A DNA stretch of 33,372 bases from a virus: IMG/VR virus record IMGVR_UViG_3300005525_000065, positions 1 through 33,372 of that record. One strand, 5' to 3'. A model generated the notes under the pieces. The model had not been told where the DNA came from. It worked only from the letters and a program-made list of their open reading frames with translations, and did not search any database. The first letter of the stretch is position 1, and the number at the start of each line of letters is the position of its first letter. This document shows positions 1,877 to 8,906 of the stretch, one piece after another. The translations under genes and the position numbers were made by a program.

Positions 1877-2206
1877 TCAGGCCCTGCCGTAGAAGACACC
1901 CCCCCGGGGGGGGTGTTTTTTTTCTGAAGTCACCCGAGGCGGCCTGTTACCCGCCAGTGCCCCCACCACCGCGCCGCCTTCGCTGACACGCAGCGCAGGG
2001 GCTTGATGGGGCTGGGCGTCCAGCCATTGGTCTGCTGCAGCTTGGCCCTGCTCTGCAGCCCGCCTGGCGTGCTCACGCTGCAGGCGCAGGCCTTCGCGCA
2101 GGGCGGCATCCACCCAGGCCTGGCCGAACATCTGGCGCAGTTCGTCCACCAAAGCCGCAGCACCCGGCATCTCATCCCTCAACCCGCCCTTCGTCTTCTC
2201 ACTCAT
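1877..2206 (-). CDS. Hypothetical phage protein
   Basis: This 109-residue protein has no recognised function. I chose the ATG at 2206 (MSEKTKGGLRDEMPG) because the longer open frame to 2452 runs through the repeat-rich candidate origin and translates there into low-complexity repeats. Residues about 15-60 are predicted helical and charged (LVDELRQMFGQAWVDAALREG), while the tail is Pro/Gly-rich. The final codons read through a homopolymeric segment of eight A, then runs of C and G, encoding EKKHPPRGG, which also looks like a terminator on the other strand. No convincing Shine-Dalgarno precedes the ATG. It lies between helicase and gpZ-like genes and precedes the latter by 3 bases in the same frame. 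Confidence 0.6.
   Translation of the reverse strand: MSEKTKGGLRDEMPGAAALVDELRQMFGQAWVDAALREGLRLQREHARRAAEQGQAAADQWLDAQPHQAPALRVSEGGAVVGALAGNRPPRVTSEKKHPPRGGVFYGRA
1896..1923 (+). terminator. Intrinsic-terminator-like hairpin, plus strand
   Basis: ACA followed by seven C, eight G and TGT can fold into a very stable G+C stem, followed directly by eight T on the plus strand (1916-1923). This is the textbook form of a rho-independent terminator for rightward transcription. Leftward it lacks a U-tract. No plus-strand gene lies to its left, so it would stop antisense transcripts coming from the terminase side. It overlaps the 3' coding end of the gene at 1877-2206. Confidence 0.45.
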
Positions 2207-2211
2207 GGTTT

Positions 2212-2437
2212 GGTTACGTGATGGGGGTGTTGGTTGCGGGGTGGTTGCGCGAGTGGTTGCGCGACATATGCCCGTGGTTGCGCGAGTTACGCGAAAACCC
2301 GCGTAAAGAGGTTGCTGGTGGAAAAACACTTTGGGTGTTTTGCTCATGTGTGCGTGAGCGCGAAAGTCGCGTAACTCACGTAACCACGCGGGTTTCCGGC
2401 GCAACCGCCGCGCAACCGCCGCGCAACCCGCGCAACC
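2212..2437. other. Candidate replication origin: iterons and nested inverted repeats
   Basis: The 242 bp gap between the helicase stop and the next start is densely structured. On the left, TGGTTGCGSG-type units start at 2231, 2242, 2254 and 2275, at spacings of 11, 12 and 21 bp, close to whole helical turns. On the right, four inverted copies, GCGCAACC, start at 2399, 2410, 2421 and 2430. Longer perfect inverted pairs are nested inside: GGTTACGTGA 2212-2221 with 2376-2385, GAGTTACGCGA 2284-2294 with 2367-2377, and AAACCCGCGT 2295-2304 with 2386-2395. A local hairpin TTACGCG/CGCGTAA lies at 2287-2306. The centre, 2322-2341, is A/T-rich (AAAACAC/GTGTTTT). Adjacency to helicase and primase suggests an iteron origin; an operator array is the alternative. 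Confidence 0.55.
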
Positions 2438-2448
2438 GGTGGGGCGTG

Positions 2449-3942
2449 TCATGTGTCGCCGTCCTCGCTCTTGCTGCCGCCAAAGTGCCGGCCAAAGCGG
2501 GCCATGTCGCTCTCAAAGGCCGCGCAGCTTTCCTTGGCCCACTCACCCATGGTCTGGCCGTCTGGTGGCCCGGCCTCGCCAGGTATCCACACGCGGATGG
2601 CCTGCTTGCCGTTCTGCCCCTGGTCCAGCTTCACGCTGTGGCAGCGCAGCTTGCCGCGTGCCGCCTTCTCCACGCCCTTGCTGAAGACCACCTGCGCTGG
2701 TGGAAAGCGCTCACCCGTGGCCTGGGCCCAGCGCTGAAAGGCGCGGTAGAGCTGCTCGGTGCTGCATACCCTCAGAGGGAGGGGGAGATAACCCGCCACC
2801 CATTCGCGCACGAAGCGCTCCTGCGGGCGCAGGCCCAGCTCGATCAGGTCTTCTTTGGCCCGCGTCATGGGCGGGATCTGGAACTCGTCAAACCCGTCCA
2901 GCGGCAGCGTCATGAGGAACTCATAGAACGCCTGCGCGCCGCCGTTGGCCAGGCACTGCGCCACGCGGGCGTACAGGCCCTGCTCATCGCGCGGCGGGGT
3001 GTAGACCACCATGTACCGCCGGTCGCCCGGCTCCAGGGCCAGGGGCTGCTGCTCGTTGCTGAGGAACACCACATTGCAGTGGTTGGACTCGGTGCGCAGC
3101 GGCATCATCTTGGCGTTGATCTGGATCGTCTCGCCCGTGATGAAGCTCTTGAGCTTGTTCTTGTGGTGGTACAGCTCGGCCCGCGCCACCACCTCGTCCC
3201 CGATCAGAAACAGCTTCATGCTGGCCCAGTCGTTGAACTTGTCTTCGAGCTGGTCCTGCCCCACCACCAGGGCATATTTGCCGTAGATGCCGGCCACGAT
3301 CTCGAACAGCAGGTTCTTGCCCGCGCCCTGCGGGCCGTGAAACACCAGCGCGCTGCGCATCTTGGCGCCGGGGCGCTGCAGCGGCAGGGCCAGCCAGCGC
3401 AGCACCCAGGCGCACACCTCGGCGCAGCCCTCAGGCGTGGCTGCGCTCTCGCCGCACAGGTACTGCAGCAGCTCGATGATGGCGCGGCAGTCGCCCTTCT
3501 TCGGCTGCATCTCGAAGCCGTCGAACAGGTTGATGCAGGGCGCCTCGAGCTCGCGCCCGGGCTCGAACTGCAGCTCCTCGGGCTTGACCATGCGCCGCTC
3601 CGGGCTGTTGAGCCAGGCCTTCACGGCGTCATTCGTCATGGCCAGGCGCAGCGCGTTGACGGGCACGATGCGCCGCGTCTCGTCGTCCCACACGGTCTGC
3701 GTGCCGTAGATCAGCGCAAAGCTCTCCAGCAGCCGGCCCACCGCGCCCGGGTTGGCCATGCGGGCCTTGCGCGGGCGGCCTGGTGCGGGTGCGCGTGGGC
3801 GCTTGCCCTCCACGCCGGCCATGCGCACCAGTTGCGACAGCAGCTCATGCAGGCCCCCTCCCCCCTCGCTGGGCGCGTTTGCGCCGGCCGGTGGGGTGGG
3901 AGGTTCTTCTGCCATTCGGATGACGTTGTCAGGCTGCGACAT
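2449..3942 (-). CDS. Phage SF3-type replicative helicase (DUF5906 family)
   Basis: This 497-residue protein probably unwinds phage DNA at the origin. The Walker A loop GPQGAGKN is at about residues 204-211, after the segment SALVFH. A Walker B-like hydrophobic strand ending in acid (LFLIGDE) follows about 40 residues on. Later SNEQQPL and RRY segments resemble the sensor and arginine-finger region of superfamily 3 helicases of the primase-helicase DUF5906 type. The N-terminal 60 residues are Pro/Gly-rich and probably disordered. The gene overlaps the Toprim primase by 14 bases, so the two form a split primase-helicase pair. The candidate origin begins just past its stop codon. No DNA polymerase or dedicated initiator gene is visible. 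Confidence 0.85.
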   Translation of the reverse strand: MSQPDNVIRMAEEPPTPPAGANAPSEGGGGLHELLSQLVRMAGVEGKRPRAPAPGRPRKARMANPGAVGRLLESFALIYGTQTVWDDETRRIVPVNALRLAMTNDAVKAWLNSPERRMVKPEELQFEPGRELEAPCINLFDGFEMQPKKGDCRAIIELLQYLCGESAATPEGCAEVCAWVLRWLALPLQRPGAKMRSALVFHGPQGAGKNLLFEIVAGIYGKYALVVGQDQLEDKFNDWASMKLFLIGDEVVARAELYHHKNKLKSFITGETIQINAKMMPLRTESNHCNVVFLSNEQQPLALEPGDRRYMVVYTPPRDEQGLYARVAQCLANGGAQAFYEFLMTLPLDGFDEFQIPPMTRAKEDLIELGLRPQERFVREWVAGYLPLPLRVCSTEQLYRAFQRWAQATGERFPPAQVVFSKGVEKAARGKLRCHSVKLDQGQNGKQAIRVWIPGEAGPPDGQTMGEWAKESCAAFESDMARFGRHFGGSKSEDGDT

Positions 3943-4912
3943 TCAGCGATTCCGTGAGGATTTCCGAGCCGAGTACGTAGAACGCGTGCCGCAGCTGCCG
4001 CCGCACCACGCCCAGGCCTGCACTCAAGTGCAGGTCGTTGAAATCCGTGTCCTTGGGGCCACGGGGCATGCGGGCCCAGATCGGCCAGGTGTAGTGGCAG
4101 TCCTCCACCGCACGGCTGGCCTGGTGCGCCTTCAGCCGGCCAGGGTTGCCCTCGGTGCGCCAGTCGTCGTCGGCGCAGATCAGCAGCGGGCTGTGCGGGT
4201 GCAGGCCGCGCAGCAGCTGCGCCACGTGCAGCAGGTTGCCCGCGTCCAGGCCCACAAACACGGGCAGCTTGCGGTCCACCGCCATGCGCAGGCTCAGGCC
4301 CGTGGCCCAGCCCTCGCAGATCAGCAGCGGCTCGCCCACCACCACGTGGCCCAGGCGCAGGCAGCAGCCCGGCTTCTCAAAGCCGCGGGTGAAGCGCTTG
4401 CTGCCATCAGGGCGGATCACCTGCAGCGCCTTGAGCGCCTGGTCGCGCGGCAGGTCATAGCGCAGCAGCGGGATGACGATGGAGCCGTCGCGCAGGTAGC
4501 GGCAGCCCTCGGCCTGCACGGCCTTGCGCTGGAGGTAGGGCACCTGGCCGATCGGTTCACGCGCGGCGCTGGCCCACAGATCGGCAGCCGTCATGGCGGC
4601 CTGGGCGGCGGCAGCGGCGCGGGCTTGGGCGTCGGCCTCGGCCTGCGCCTGGCGGCGGGCCTGCAGCGAGTCACGCTCGGCCTGGCTGATGCCCTGCCAG
4701 TCCACCTCCACGCGGTGGCTCTCCTGGCCGCGCCAGTTGCCAAAGCTGCCGGTCACCACAAACGTGCCGGCATCGGTGCGCACCTCGCGCAGGCGGTACC
4801 AGTGCGTCTTCTTCGGGCCAAAGCGCCGCACGCGGCCGGTCAGGTCCAGCGGCAGGGGCGGCACCTCCAGCCCTGCTGCCAGCATCTGGCCGACCACGTC
4901 TTGAGGGTTCAC
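3929..4912 (-). CDS. Toprim-domain phage DNA primase
   Basis: This 327-residue protein probably lays down RNA primers for phage replication. The C-terminal half carries a Toprim-like fold: LLICEGWATGLSLR supplies the conserved Glu at about residue 200, and LLICADDDWR supplies the Asp cluster at about residue 245. The N-terminal third includes an Ala/Gln-rich helical stretch (residues about 85-110) and a middle segment common to phage Toprim_3 primases (YLRDGSIVIPLLRYD). No zinc-finger is seen. The start is GTG, overlapping the preceding stop as GTGA. It is co-transcribed with the SF3 helicase and overlaps it. Family is recognised from motifs; priming activity is inferred. Confidence 0.8.
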   Translation of the reverse strand: MNPQDVVGQMLAAGLEVPPLPLDLTGRVRRFGPKKTHWYRLREVRTDAGTFVVTGSFGNWRGQESHRVEVDWQGISQAERDSLQARRQAQAEADAQARAAAAAQAAMTAADLWASAAREPIGQVPYLQRKAVQAEGCRYLRDGSIVIPLLRYDLPRDQALKALQVIRPDGSKRFTRGFEKPGCCLRLGHVVVGEPLLICEGWATGLSLRMAVDRKLPVFVGLDAGNLLHVAQLLRGLHPHSPLLICADDDWRTEGNPGRLKAHQASRAVEDCHYTWPIWARMPRGPKDTDFNDLHLSAGLGVVRRQLRHAFYVLGSEILTESLNVAA

Positions 4913-5202
4913 GGCTGGCCCACCCTCGTCAACAACCGGCTGGCCACCCGCTCGTGCATGTCAAAGCCGTCCACCGTGGGCCCTTGGCGCAGCACCACGT
5001 TGTGCTCATCGACGTAGCCAAAGCCCAGCAGACGGTCGGGCCGGTCTGCCGTGGCCGGCTCAATGCGCAGCAGCTTGCACACGCGGCCCATGCGGGTGAG
5101 GTACAGGTTGCCAATGCGCGCTTCAAACTGCACCACCACCTTGCGTCCAGCGGGGCTGGCGCGGCCGGCAGCGGCCTCTCGGGAGACTCGTTGCCCTGCC
5201 AT
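4909..5202 (-). CDS. Hypothetical phage protein upstream of the primase
   Basis: This is a 97-residue protein of unknown function. The first 20 residues are basic and polar (Arg/Ala/Ser/Gly-rich). The remainder looks like a small beta-rich domain (VVVQFEARIGNLYLTRMGRVCKLL, then LLGFGYVDEHNVVLR). The stop overlaps the primase GTG by four bases, so translation is probably coupled and the protein may belong to the replication module. An AAGGG sequence eight bases before the ATG is a reasonable ribosome-binding site. I do not recognise a named family. Confidence 0.6.
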   Translation of the reverse strand: MAGQRVSREAAAGRASPAGRKVVVQFEARIGNLYLTRMGRVCKLLRIEPATADRPDRLLGFGYVDEHNVVLRQGPTVDGFDMHERVASRLLTRVGQP

Positions 5203-5514
5203 CAGCTCAGCCCTTGCGTGTGCTCAGTGCCCGCCCTGGCGCCTGCGCAACCATGGCGGCCATGGTTCAGGCTTGCCAGGAAGTGGGAAGAAAAAACGCG
5301 CCGCCGCGCATGGCCGTGCTCGAGGGTCAGGAGAACCCGACGGCCATGCCCGGCAGCCGGCATCACGGCCGGCCAGCCTGGCGCAAAGGGGCGGCGGCTG
5401 GCGACTGTGAGAGCACCGCTGCCCGTGGAGACTCGGTTGGAGATGAGGAAGGGCGGGCGCCCCTTGCGATTTACGATGGAAGTTCTCACGCAGCCATCCA
5501 CGCAAGGAGCACCC
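5203..5514. other. 312 bp stretch without a convincing gene
   Basis: I see no gene here. It contains one copy of the recurrent gene-junction motif CCATGGTTCAGG (5260-5271). On the minus strand this gives a TGA-ACC-ATG junction between two very short frames: 14 codons before it and 18 codons after it (5207-5263). These may be decayed gene ends. The last 15 bases provide the AAGGAG ribosome-binding site (5503-5508) of the plus-strand zinc-ribbon gene. A promoter for that gene or for the 5202 gene could be here, but I find no good -35/-10 pair. Confidence 0.6.
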
Positions 5515-5736
5515 ATGAAGCTGAACTTGGACTCACACGCCATCGAACTCACCTGCCCGAGTTGCCGCGGCAAGTTCACGCACACGCTCGGGCAGTTGAA
5601 GAACAAGACAAAGATCGCCTGCCCCCGGTGCAGCGTGGACATTGCCCTGGAGCAGGGAGACTTCCGTCGAGAAATCGCCAAGGTCGAGCAGAGCCTGGCG
5701 CAGCTTGGGAAGACGGTCAGCCGACTCGGCAAGTAG
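5515..5736 (+). CDS. Small zinc-ribbon protein, antisense to the neighbouring gene
   Basis: This 73-residue protein has two CxxC knuckles, CPSC at residues 14-17 and CPRC at 38-41, separated by a Gly/Lys-containing loop. Together they should bind one zinc ion. A charged helix follows to the end (FRREIAKVEQSLAQLGKTVSRLGK). Small proteins with this layout are common, mostly uncharacterised, in phages and proteobacteria. An AAGGAG ribosome-binding site ends six bases before the ATG. It is the only plus-strand gene left of the repressor, and 204 bp of it is antisense to the minus-strand gene at 5533-5952. That arrangement suggests an independently acquired gene or mutual regulation. Function is unknown. 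Confidence 0.7.
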   Translation: MKLNLDSHAIELTCPSCRGKFTHTLGQLKNKTKIACPRCSVDIALEQGDFRREIAKVEQSLAQLGKTVSRLGK

Positions 5737-5952
5737 CTGCAGGTCGGCCATGGCATCGGCCGAGTCCAGCATCAGGCGCACGGCGGGCTCTGCAGTGAAA
5801 TCCCGTGCACAACCGCAACCCTGGCTGATGGCTGCGTGCAGGGCCTGGGCCAGATGAGTCAGGCCGTCAGCAGACACGCTGTCTGGGAACATCACCCCGG
5901 CAGAGACTTCTCCACCTGCCTTGCGCTTGACGACGATGGCTATGCGTCCCAT
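5533..5952 (-). CDS. Hypothetical early lytic protein following Cro
   Basis: This is a 139-residue frame starting 3 bases after the Cro-like stop (TGA-ACC-ATG). The N-terminal half looks like a real protein (MGRIAIVVKRKAGGEVSAGVMFPD, then a segment with GCGCARDF). The C-terminal half is the antisense of the zinc-ribbon gene, so its sequence may be constrained by that gene instead. It follows Cro in what should be the first lytic transcript, the position occupied by cII- or YdaT-type genes in other phages. No such domain is recognisable. The C-terminal part could be non-functional. Confidence 0.5.
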   Translation of the reverse strand: MGRIAIVVKRKAGGEVSAGVMFPDSVSADGLTHLAQALHAAISQGCGCARDFTAEPAVRLMLDSADAMADLQLLAESADRLPKLRQALLDLGDFSTEVSLLQGNVHAAPGAGDLCLVLQLPERVRELAAATRAGEFDGV

Positions 5953-5955
5953 GGT

Positions 5956-6249
5956 TCAAGCAGCCTCCTGCGCCGCCACCTGCGGCCGCGCGATGTCGAT
6001 GACGGGCCGGCCGGCGGGGTGGGGCCAGGCGGGGTCGGGGATGCGGGCCCAGTGCACGTCGGGGCGCAGGGTCTCGACGGTGACGGTGGCCTGCGTGGCG
6101 CGCTCGATGGCGGGGCAGCGCTCGCCAGGAATTTTGCGAACCCCAGCCACCCACTGGCTCACTGCTGCGGATGAAACGCCAAGTGCGGCAGCCAAAGCCG
6201 ACGGGCCTCCCGCTGCGCGCACAGCTGTTGCTGAAGGGTTTTCTTTCAT
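5956..6249 (-). CDS. Cro/YdaS-like transcriptional regulator
   Basis: This 97-residue protein has a helix-turn-helix at about residues 15-40 (ALAAALGVSSAAVSQWVAG), of the YdaS/Cro type. The ending WxRIPDPAWPHPAGRPVIDI resembles the tails of many prophage Cro-like proteins. It is divergent from the CI-like repressor with a 72 bp operator region between them, and it heads the leftward lytic genes. Its role is presumably to shut off the repressor and tune early transcription. A possible -10 (TACTAT on the minus strand, 6256-6261) ends only six bases before the ATG, so the mRNA could be leaderless. Some relatives are called YdaS antitoxins, but no toxin partner is visible. Confidence 0.8.
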   Translation of the reverse strand: MKENPSATAVRAAGGPSALAAALGVSSAAVSQWVAGVRKIPGERCPAIERATQATVTVETLRPDVHWARIPDPAWPHPAGRPVIDIARPQVAAQEAA

Positions 6250-6321
6250 GCGGGAATAGTAGCACTGCTAAATGCTATTCCGCAAGCCCCGCTAAAACTG
6301 CCGCGCTCTAGCATTGCTTAC
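6250..6321. promoter_or_regulatory. Divergent promoter/operator region between Cro and repressor
   Basis: A perfect palindrome TAGCACTGCTA (6260-6270) lies over the likely Cro promoter: minus-strand TTGCGG at 6280-6285, an 18 bp spacer, TACTAT at 6256-6261. A second near-copy, TAGCATTGCTT, lies at 6309-6319 beside the repressor start. A further TGCTA half-site occurs at 6273-6277. GGAATAG (6253-6259) and CTATTCC (6275-6281) form a flanking inverted repeat. Both start codons lie six to seven bases from the -10-like boxes. The sites are read directly; binding is inferred. Confidence 0.65.
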
Positions 6322-6783
6322 ATGGAATCTGACCACCAGCAGGAGGGGCAGCGGCTTGCGCAGTTGCTGGCTCGAAGCGGCATCACCAACAAGGCCGAAT
6401 TCGCACGCGACTGGAAGCTCAAGGGCGGCGCGTCCATGCTCTCGCAGCACATCTCGGGCAATCGCCCGATCTCGCTGGACGCGGCCGTCGTTTACTGCAC
6501 GGCCTTGCGGGTGCCGCTGGAGGAGGTGTCGCCCAGCATTGCCGAGCAGGTGCGCATCGCAGCCAGACTGCTGCGGCCTAGCTTAGGCGTCCATGAACCT
6601 GAGCTGGCCAGTCCTGTCGCCGCGCTTCCTTCCCGGGCCTCTTGGCCGCACAGAGCAATCACTGAGCGGGAATGGCACCAGCTCACCCCAGACGAGCGCC
6701 TAGAAGTAGAAGGCGCCATGCTCAAGGAATACGGCCGGGTCCGCAAGGAGCGAGGCGCACAGCAAAGACGCGGAGCGGCGTGA
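6322..6783 (+). CDS. CI-like phage repressor (HTH, no peptidase domain)
   Basis: This 153-residue protein has an N-terminal DNA-binding region at about residues 10-70 (AEFARDWKLKGGASMLSQHISGNRPISL), of the kind found in phage repressors that begin with a P22 C2-like helix-turn-helix. The PLEEVSPSIA segment is also typical. The C-terminal half lacks the Ser/Lys S24 peptidase seen in LexA-type repressors, so induction would not use RecA-stimulated self-cleavage. It ends in a basic tail. It is divergent from Cro and upstream of the early operon. No Shine-Dalgarno precedes the ATG, and TAGCAT at 6309-6314 could be a -10, so the transcript may be leaderless like lambda PRM cI. The operators TAGCRNTGCTA are its likely targets. 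Confidence 0.75.
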   Translation: MESDHQQEGQRLAQLLARSGITNKAEFARDWKLKGGASMLSQHISGNRPISLDAAVVYCTALRVPLEEVSPSIAEQVRIAARLLRPSLGVHEPELASPVAALPSRASWPHRAITEREWHQLTPDERLEVEGAMLKEYGRVRKERGAQQRRGAA

Positions 6784-6791
6784 CGCAAAGC

Positions 6792-6810
6792 GCCAAGGTC
6801 TATCCTTGGC
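6792..6810 (+). other. Hairpin after the repressor gene
   Basis: GCCAAGG (6792-6798) and CCTTGGC (6804-6810) form a perfect 7 bp stem with loop TCTAT, eight bases after the repressor stop. There is no following T-run, so it is not a standard intrinsic terminator. It might stabilise or weakly end the repressor mRNA. Confidence 0.4.
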
Positions 6811-6881
6811 CAAATCGCCACGGTTGCCATCCCCCAAAGGTTATAGACACACCGCGCAGAAGCTGATTTCGAAAAAGCATG

Positions 6882-6921
6882 TAGCGTTGCTATTGCTCAA
6901 ACCATAAAGCGTTGCTAACAT
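6882..6921 (+). promoter_or_regulatory. Early-operon promoter with two operators
   Basis: TAGCGTTGCTA (6882-6892) and AAGCGTTGCTA (6907-6917) are copies of the operator family seen between Cro and the repressor, set 25 bp apart in the same orientation. Between and over them is a possible promoter: TTGCTC (6893-6898), 17 bp spacer, TAACAT (6916-6921). The first gene, with a GGAGG ribosome-binding site, starts at 6970. By analogy with lambda PL, this promoter would be repressed in the lysogen. The -35/-10 match is modest. Confidence 0.55.
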
Positions 6922-6969
6922 TCGCATCCACGCCCCAAGACAACGGCACAGCCGGGGGCGGAGGATGCG

Positions 6970-7885: not shown

Positions 7886-8247
7886 CGTTCCGGGTACCTG
7901 AAAAGCACCGCATCCGCGAGGGACGCATGGGCAGCGACAGCGGATTTGGCTGCAACGGAGCCTTTGAAGTTCCACTCAAGCACGGCCAGCGTGTGTTTGT
8001 CATTGCCTCAGACCAACTCGGTTGGGAACACGTCAGCGTGTCCCGCAAAGACCGCCCGCCGCTGTGGGATGAGATGTGCCAAATCAAGGCCATGTTTTGG
8101 GACGAGCACGACTGCGTTATCCAGTTCCACCCGCCCCGCAGCCAGTACGTCAACAACCACCCGAACTGCCTGCACTTGTGGCGGCCCATTGGCCCCAGCG
8201 TGCCAATGCCGGATTCATTGCTGGTGGGTTTTAAGGATCCATCATGA
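7882..8247 (+). CDS. DUF7694-type phage protein
   Basis: This 121-residue protein belongs to a conserved but uncharacterised phage family. Recognisable blocks are the opening PEKHRIREGRMGSDSGFGCNG, the central FVIASDQLGWEHVSVS, and WDEMCQIKAMFWDEHDCVIQ, followed by HPPRSQYVNNHPNCLHLWRP. The many conserved Trp, His and Asn residues suggest an enzyme or a ligand-binding protein. No catalytic site is established. It sits just before the dNMP kinase, with which it overlaps by four bases. Confidence 0.75.
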   Translation: MTFRVPEKHRIREGRMGSDSGFGCNGAFEVPLKHGQRVFVIASDQLGWEHVSVSRKDRPPLWDEMCQIKAMFWDEHDCVIQFHPPRSQYVNNHPNCLHLWRPIGPSVPMPDSLLVGFKDPS

Positions 8248-8906
8248 CCCTCGACCCCATCGTCATCGGCCTGGCCGGCCACGCCGGCGCCGGCAAAGAC
8301 ACCGCCGCCGCGTATTTGGTGCAGCGTTACGGCTTCGTCCAGGCCGCCTTTGCGGACCCCATCCGCAGCATGGCCCTGCTGCTGTTGGAAGAAGCCGGCA
8401 TAGACCACCGCTGGCTCACCGACCGCGCCTACAAAGAGCTGCGCATACCCGGCCTGGGCGTGAGCGCCCGCGCGCTGATGCAGACCATCGGCACCGAGGT
8501 GGGCCGCCACCTGCACCCCAGCATCTGGACACGCCACATGGCCCTGCGCCTGGGCCTGGCCGGCGCGGGCCTGCCCAACACCTACCCGGTGCACGACCGC
8601 ATCGTCATCAGCGACGTGCGCTTTCAGAACGAGGCGCACTGGGTGCACTTGGTGGGCGGCAAGGTCATCCGCCTGCATCGCAACCAGGCCGCCGCCGTTC
8701 GCGCCCACGCCAGCGAGGCCGAGCTGCTGACGCTGGACGCCGACGTGGACCTGCACAACCACGGCGAGCACTTTGCCGGCCTGCACGGGCTGCTGGATGG
8801 GGCGATGGCTGAGTGGGGGGTGGAGGAGCGGGCGTGGCCAGAGCGGCACCTGCCGGCCGACCCGGCGGCGCTGGTGGCCGTGGACAGCGAGGGAGGGCTG
8901 ATCTGA
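8244..8906 (+). CDS. Deoxynucleoside monophosphate kinase
   Basis: This 220-residue protein likely phosphorylates dNMPs to dNDPs, feeding phage DNA synthesis. The P-loop GHAGAGKDT at residues about 12-20 is characteristic of phage dNMP kinases (T4 gp1-like, DNMK family). AFADPIRSM, a central segment with IGTEVGR, and SDVRFQNEA are further family signatures. The length is close to other phage members. The C-terminal 30 residues are variable. Start and stop both overlap the neighbouring genes, in a run of small early genes. It is the only gene of this operon with a clear metabolic role. Confidence 0.9.
   Translation: MTLDPIVIGLAGHAGAGKDTAAAYLVQRYGFVQAAFADPIRSMALLLLEEAGIDHRWLTDRAYKELRIPGLGVSARALMQTIGTEVGRHLHPSIWTRHMALRLGLAGAGLPNTYPVHDRIVISDVRFQNEAHWVHLVGGKVIRLHRNQAAAVRAHASEAELLTLDADVDLHNHGEHFAGLHGLLDGAMAEWGVEERAWPERHLPADPAALVAVDSEGGLI

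Follow-up and report, generated by a model that had tools for sequence, protein, structure and literature searches.

The spacer directly behind the helicase gene of this phage (positions 2207-2448, minus strand) is very probably its replication origin, and the adjacent D5-type helicase its own initiator. This reading rests on sequence comparison and on predicted structures. The spacer is non-coding and consists of two inverted arms of iterons around a centre, and the same plan recurs behind the helicase gene in most of its relatives.

The window (the whole 33.4-kb virus record) contains the head, portal, tail and terminase genes of a phage. On the minus strand, a gene for a TOPRIM primase (3929-4912; Pfam Toprim_3, E = 3.4e-09; phrog_2249, DNA primase) is followed by the gene for a D5-type (DUF5906/VapE-like) helicase (2449-3942), which was assigned by Pfam (PF19263, E = 9.8e-20), by PHROG DNA primase/helicase families and by a structural model and fold search. 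Then come the spacer, a small ORF that matches no known family (1877-2206), a minor tail protein gene (1070-1873) and the gene for the terminase small subunit (391-927), which lies 1.3 kb from the array. The spacer is bounded by the helicase stop codon (2449-2451) and the next start codon (ATG, 2204-2206). Primase and helicase are encoded by separate genes with a 14 bp overlap; in many relatives they are fused into one protein of ~800 residues. Where this small ORF ends, a perfect hairpin of the C7/G7 type followed by a T run (1899-1925, plus strand) resembles a terminator.

The arm distal to the helicase (2212-2291, plus strand) contains GGTTGCG at 2232-2238, 2243-2249, 2255-2261 and 2276-2282, in steps of 11, 12 and 21 bp. 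In the helicase-side arm (2370-2437), which is inverted and reads on the minus strand, the same word occupies 2400-2406, 2411-2417, 2422-2428 and 2431-2437, in steps of 11, 11 and 9 bp. Both arms are lengthened by degenerate copies (GGTTACG, AGTTACG and GGTTGCT), among them GGTTACG at 2212-2218 and 2379-2385 and AGTTACG at 2285-2291 and 2370-2376. The positions confirm the four direct and four inverted iterons described in the initial annotation, as does a comparison with 500 dinucleotide shuffles, the best of which reached two copies in each orientation (2+2, against 4+4 in the spacer). No other 243-bp stretch of the window holds 3+3 copies of GGTTGCG, and all six exact copies of the longer motif GGTTRCGCG in the 33 kb lie in the spacer. 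The long perfect inverted repeats nested in near-mirror sides, also described at the outset, are present: TGGTTACGTGA (11 bp; 2211-2221 and 2376-2386), GAGTTACGCGA (11 bp; 2284-2294 and 2367-2377) and AAACCCGCGT (10 bp; 2295-2304 and 2386-2395). They sit within a 40-nt mirror (78%; 2255-2294 and 2367-2406). The iteron cores vary less than the remaining spacer, with 4 of 77 variable sites compared to 22 of 165.

Comparison of the spacer across relatives with the same helicase had been named beforehand as a refuting test. We collected 199 distinct helicase relatives from viral contigs, bacterial genomes and named phages, 192 of which have at least 380 nt downstream of the helicase stop codon and were used for array counts. 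The array finder looks for one 7-mer that is direct on one side and inverted on the other. At least 2+2 copies were found behind the helicase gene in 167 of the 192 relatives (87%), and at least 3+3 copies in 129; control windows of the same length, drawn from these loci, gave 2+2 copies in 26 of 1,944 cases and 3+3 copies in none. The proposal of an iteron origin next to the helicase is thus well supported, as a candidate, by conservation of an array to which the control windows offer nothing comparable. The simple 7-mer finder detected no array in the other 25 relatives (~13%), among them L077, L080, L030 and L028. Some of these show degenerate repeats, but L077 and L080 show none and also lack the alternating run described below. 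Degenerate words, other positions or loss of the array are possible explanations.

Named phages that carry the array include Stenotrophomonas phage S1 (word TGTGCGGG), Halomonas phage H4907 (word TCAGACAG), Pseudomonas phage LPPA56 and Moraxella phage Mcat4. The complete phages S1 and H4907 and four other phage records have no cluster of their own word outside the array. A blastn search of the spacer against phages returned no match; what is conserved is therefore the layout, not the letters. The iteron words fall into ~27 classes at the clustering cut-off used, and the same layout can recur with different words: the steps 9,12,12,32,9 / 9,9,43,12,9 are common to TGTGCAGG and TGTGCGGG, and 8,44,8,8 / 8,8,44,8 to GTTACGCG and GGTTGCG. 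Gap values cluster at about 21, 32, 43-44 and 52. A test for helical phasing gave 11.4, not 10.5, as the best period, and we make no claim of phasing. The gene that follows the array varies between relatives (tail protein, terminase small subunit, methyltransferase, ParB-like protein, polymerase processivity factor or antitermination protein), which indicates that the array belongs to the helicase. Two of these neighbours, the ParB-like gene in L062 (6617-7228) and the DNA polymerase processivity factor gene in L036 (3706-4860), lie directly after the array and thus place additional genes of replication or partition next to the proposed origin. Our literature search on the iteron word and the family name, with its limited coverage of subscription journals, found no description of these arrays.

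The initial annotation had seen no obvious initiator and expected a new binding protein. This is not supported, because the neighbouring helicase is itself the candidate. The model of the helicase (pLDDT 87) ends in a helix-helix-strand-strand arrangement (residues 395-454) of the winged-helix pattern, and the same arrangement is obtained when the C-terminal domain (residues 383-497, codons 2449-2796, minus strand) is modelled in isolation. In a fold search with the whole helicase, the nearest solved structures were the helicase region of NrS-1 (6k9c, E = 1.2e-20), which is also the only sequence match in the PDB, and PriRep1 of SaPI5, for which one matched structure entry includes double-stranded DNA. 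A Foldseek search of the PDB with the isolated C-terminal domain gave weak matches, many of them to winged-helix proteins. The 'P4 family' model TIGR01613 matched the helicase below its cut-off.

The C-terminal region of the helicase also tracks the iteron word, better than its ATPase core does. With similarity in the core removed, word similarity correlates with C-terminal similarity (partial r = 0.32, reached in 0 of 300 permutations, a value from which shared ancestry is not fully removed). The reverse partial correlation, of word with core, is 0.11, so that the C-terminal value is almost three times larger. Covariation in a sliding window peaks at residues 410-479, and among single columns residue 435, located at the wing, ranks first; some core columns rank high too. 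Parsimony of the word classes does not separate the two regions (41 changes on the C-terminal tree and 42-47 on core trees). Since the permutations leave shared ancestry in place and evolution is faster at the C-terminus than in the core, we take the covariation as support, but not proof, for the helicase as reader of the iteron word. A natural pair for locating the word-reading residues is provided by L132 and L064, which have a near-identical layout and cores that are 83% identical; their C-termini are 79% identical and the word changes from TGTGCAGGG to TGTGCCATG.

The moderate strength of the covariation, and the correlation of some core columns, would also suit an origin at which a different protein, of phage or host, binds the iterons and the helicase is recruited later, as for O and P of phage lambda. 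We consider this improbable. A partner protein encoded after the array is disfavoured by the differences in the following gene between relatives, and the helicase, although all loci share it by construction, also carries a predicted DNA-binding domain. Moreover, relatives of the helicase themselves bind downstream repeats: SaPI Rep helicases use their C-terminal domain to recognise iterons that lie immediately behind the helicase gene, and in the case of Cch2 from SCCmec, direct repeats downstream of the Cch2 gene are bound by the C-terminal domain in isolation (PMC7581432). Origins of the lambda O type differ in that the iterons lie inside the gene of an O-family initiator, whereas the array lies outside the helicase gene here; no O-family match was found among the scanned replication-module proteins.

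By all signs in the sequence, and by analogy, the array with its helicase would work like P4 alpha/crr and SaPI Rep/ori. P4 likewise combines a primase with a D5/SF3-type helicase, and the TOPRIM-type primase is found here too; its 8-bp type I repeats, direct as well as inverted, follow immediately after the helicase gene. On the P4 map, crr occupies 4291-4590 and alpha 4636-6969 (minus strand), with ori several kb away, and crr is the best-scoring P4 window in our array finder (2+2). However, crr and ori of P4 are separate, whereas there is a single two-armed array here: the window, S1, H4907 and four more phage records each contain one word cluster. Because a second cis region is missing, the arrays are not strict P4 replicons. 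They also differ in their words, in the alternating run at their centre and in belonging to independent phages rather than to a satellite. SaPI origins, which we compared by published description, share the position directly downstream of the helicase gene, and SaPI5 PriRep1 is among the closest solved folds; overall similarity is low, however (about 13-17% in the fold alignment), and SaPIs are firmicute islands, whereas the loci described here belong to proteobacterial phages and prophages. With its head, portal, tail and terminase genes, the window is not a satellite of the pathogenicity island kind. The helicase region of NrS-1 is the closest solved fold, but there it is fused to an archaeo-eukaryotic primase-polymerase, not paired with a TOPRIM primase, and the NrS-1 recognition motif TTTGGTTA concerns primer synthesis (PMC8718748). 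Functional repeats next to a helicase gene are known from P4 and SaPIs; the single two-armed plan with an alternating run sets the present arrays apart from P4.

In pRN1 and Bordetella phage BIP-1, the proposed origin is a stem-loop directly downstream of the primase-helicase gene, poorly conserved in sequence and conserved in architecture (PMC4234260). A folded strand, rather than iterons, might likewise be what the helicase-primase recognises here. The spacer, taken as single-stranded DNA, folds far better than its shuffles (z = -7.3), which makes this a reasonable rival, and the essential stem-loop of pRN1 has the same position relative to its primase-helicase gene (PMC4234260). The pRN1/BIP-1 origins are described as stem-loops without iterons, whereas the spacer has iterons in both arms in addition to its strong fold. 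What is conserved is a word repeated head to tail in each arm, and because the two arms are often spaced differently, they do not pair over their whole length. Both features favour protein-binding sites, and we consider recognition of a folded strand unlikely.

An operator is less likely still. The array sits between two genes of the same direction, and iteron-bound initiators often regulate their own genes too, so a repressor or the helicase itself could control the surrounding transcription. However, the array lies behind the helicase gene and not ahead of the replication genes, we found no promoter-like site, and the genes that follow are of many kinds. Two mirrored arms of three to six copies with a special centre also exceed the usual operator.

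That the region codes for protein is very improbable. An ORF of 191 residues (1877-2452) reads through the repeats; this frame stays open in the closest relatives too, beginning at an ATGA that overlaps the helicase stop codon (ATG at 2452), and the annotation of phage S1 has an ORF overlapping the array. On the other hand, variable sites by codon position number 10/4/12 in the spacer and 22/10/133 in the helicase gene, the frame is cut short in L010, L017 and L021, and the conserved thing is a DNA word in two orientations. The initial description of the spacer as lacking coding sense is therefore borne out by the absence of a codon pattern, but one frame does stay open through it. A packaging start (pac or cos) is equally hard to credit: the terminase small subunit gene, close by in the window and adjoining the array in some relatives, is replaced after the array by ParB-like, methyltransferase, processivity-factor or antitermination genes in others and lies almost 3 kb away in H4907 with lysis genes between, and the iteron word tracks the helicase.

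The centre of the proposed origin contains an alternating pyrimidine-purine run (2345-2356). Because of a base that differs from the closest relatives, it is 12 nt long in the window, compared to 18 nt in those relatives. In the first set of relatives the run averaged 17.7 nt, compared to 8.9 nt in 1,520 control windows. Of 120 non-redundant loci, 109 have the longest alternating run of their 380 nt between the arms, where length alone predicts 25; within the centre, the longest run averages 19.5 nt, compared to 6.6 nt in shuffled centres. Direct reading of the window also shows that one part of the centre (2317-2344) is richer in A/T and contains a small hairpin, AAACAC...GTGTTT. The A/T-rich centre noted initially is thus present in the window, but it is a weak feature of the family, given that the centre is barely richer in A/T than the arms on average (0.44 vs 0.42).

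If the helicase is the initiator, each of its subunits would bind one iteron through the winged-helix C-terminal domain, and the two opposed clusters would place two helicase rings in opposite orientation on either side of the centre. The rings would open the centre, the neighbouring TOPRIM primase would do the priming and forks would depart both ways. Head-to-head loading of two rings is known for viral SF3 helicases. We offer tentatively the further idea that the G/C-containing alternating run is a new sort of opening element. Its pyrimidine-purine steps are weakly stacked and possibly prone to form left-handed DNA under supercoiling, and two self-loaded rings may start unwinding there instead of at an A/T-rich element, while iteron word and winged helix would co-evolve to give each phage lineage a private origin. 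If the proposed origin is real, head-to-head loading of two rings could be tested in a simple phage system, and origin and initiator could be read from sequence in a large, mostly uncharacterised group of beta- and gammaproteobacterial phages and prophages. The ~27 word classes, together with the variable C-terminal domains, would form a natural data set on origin recognition by self-loading helicases.

Other origin markers added little. GC skew changes sign near the array in the window, but not at the array in the two complete relatives S1 and H4907, and we therefore set it aside as uninformative. There are no DnaA boxes in the array and no excess of them across the window, and an Rfam search gave nothing near threshold.

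Further upstream, a YdaS/Cro-like helix-turn-helix protein (5956-6249, minus strand) heads the replication operon, and a gene opposite to it (6322-6783) has a weak repressor match; the pair is likely to be a lysogeny switch. The window also encodes a deoxynucleoside monophosphate kinase (8244-8906; phrog_139), a phage gene of nucleotide metabolism.
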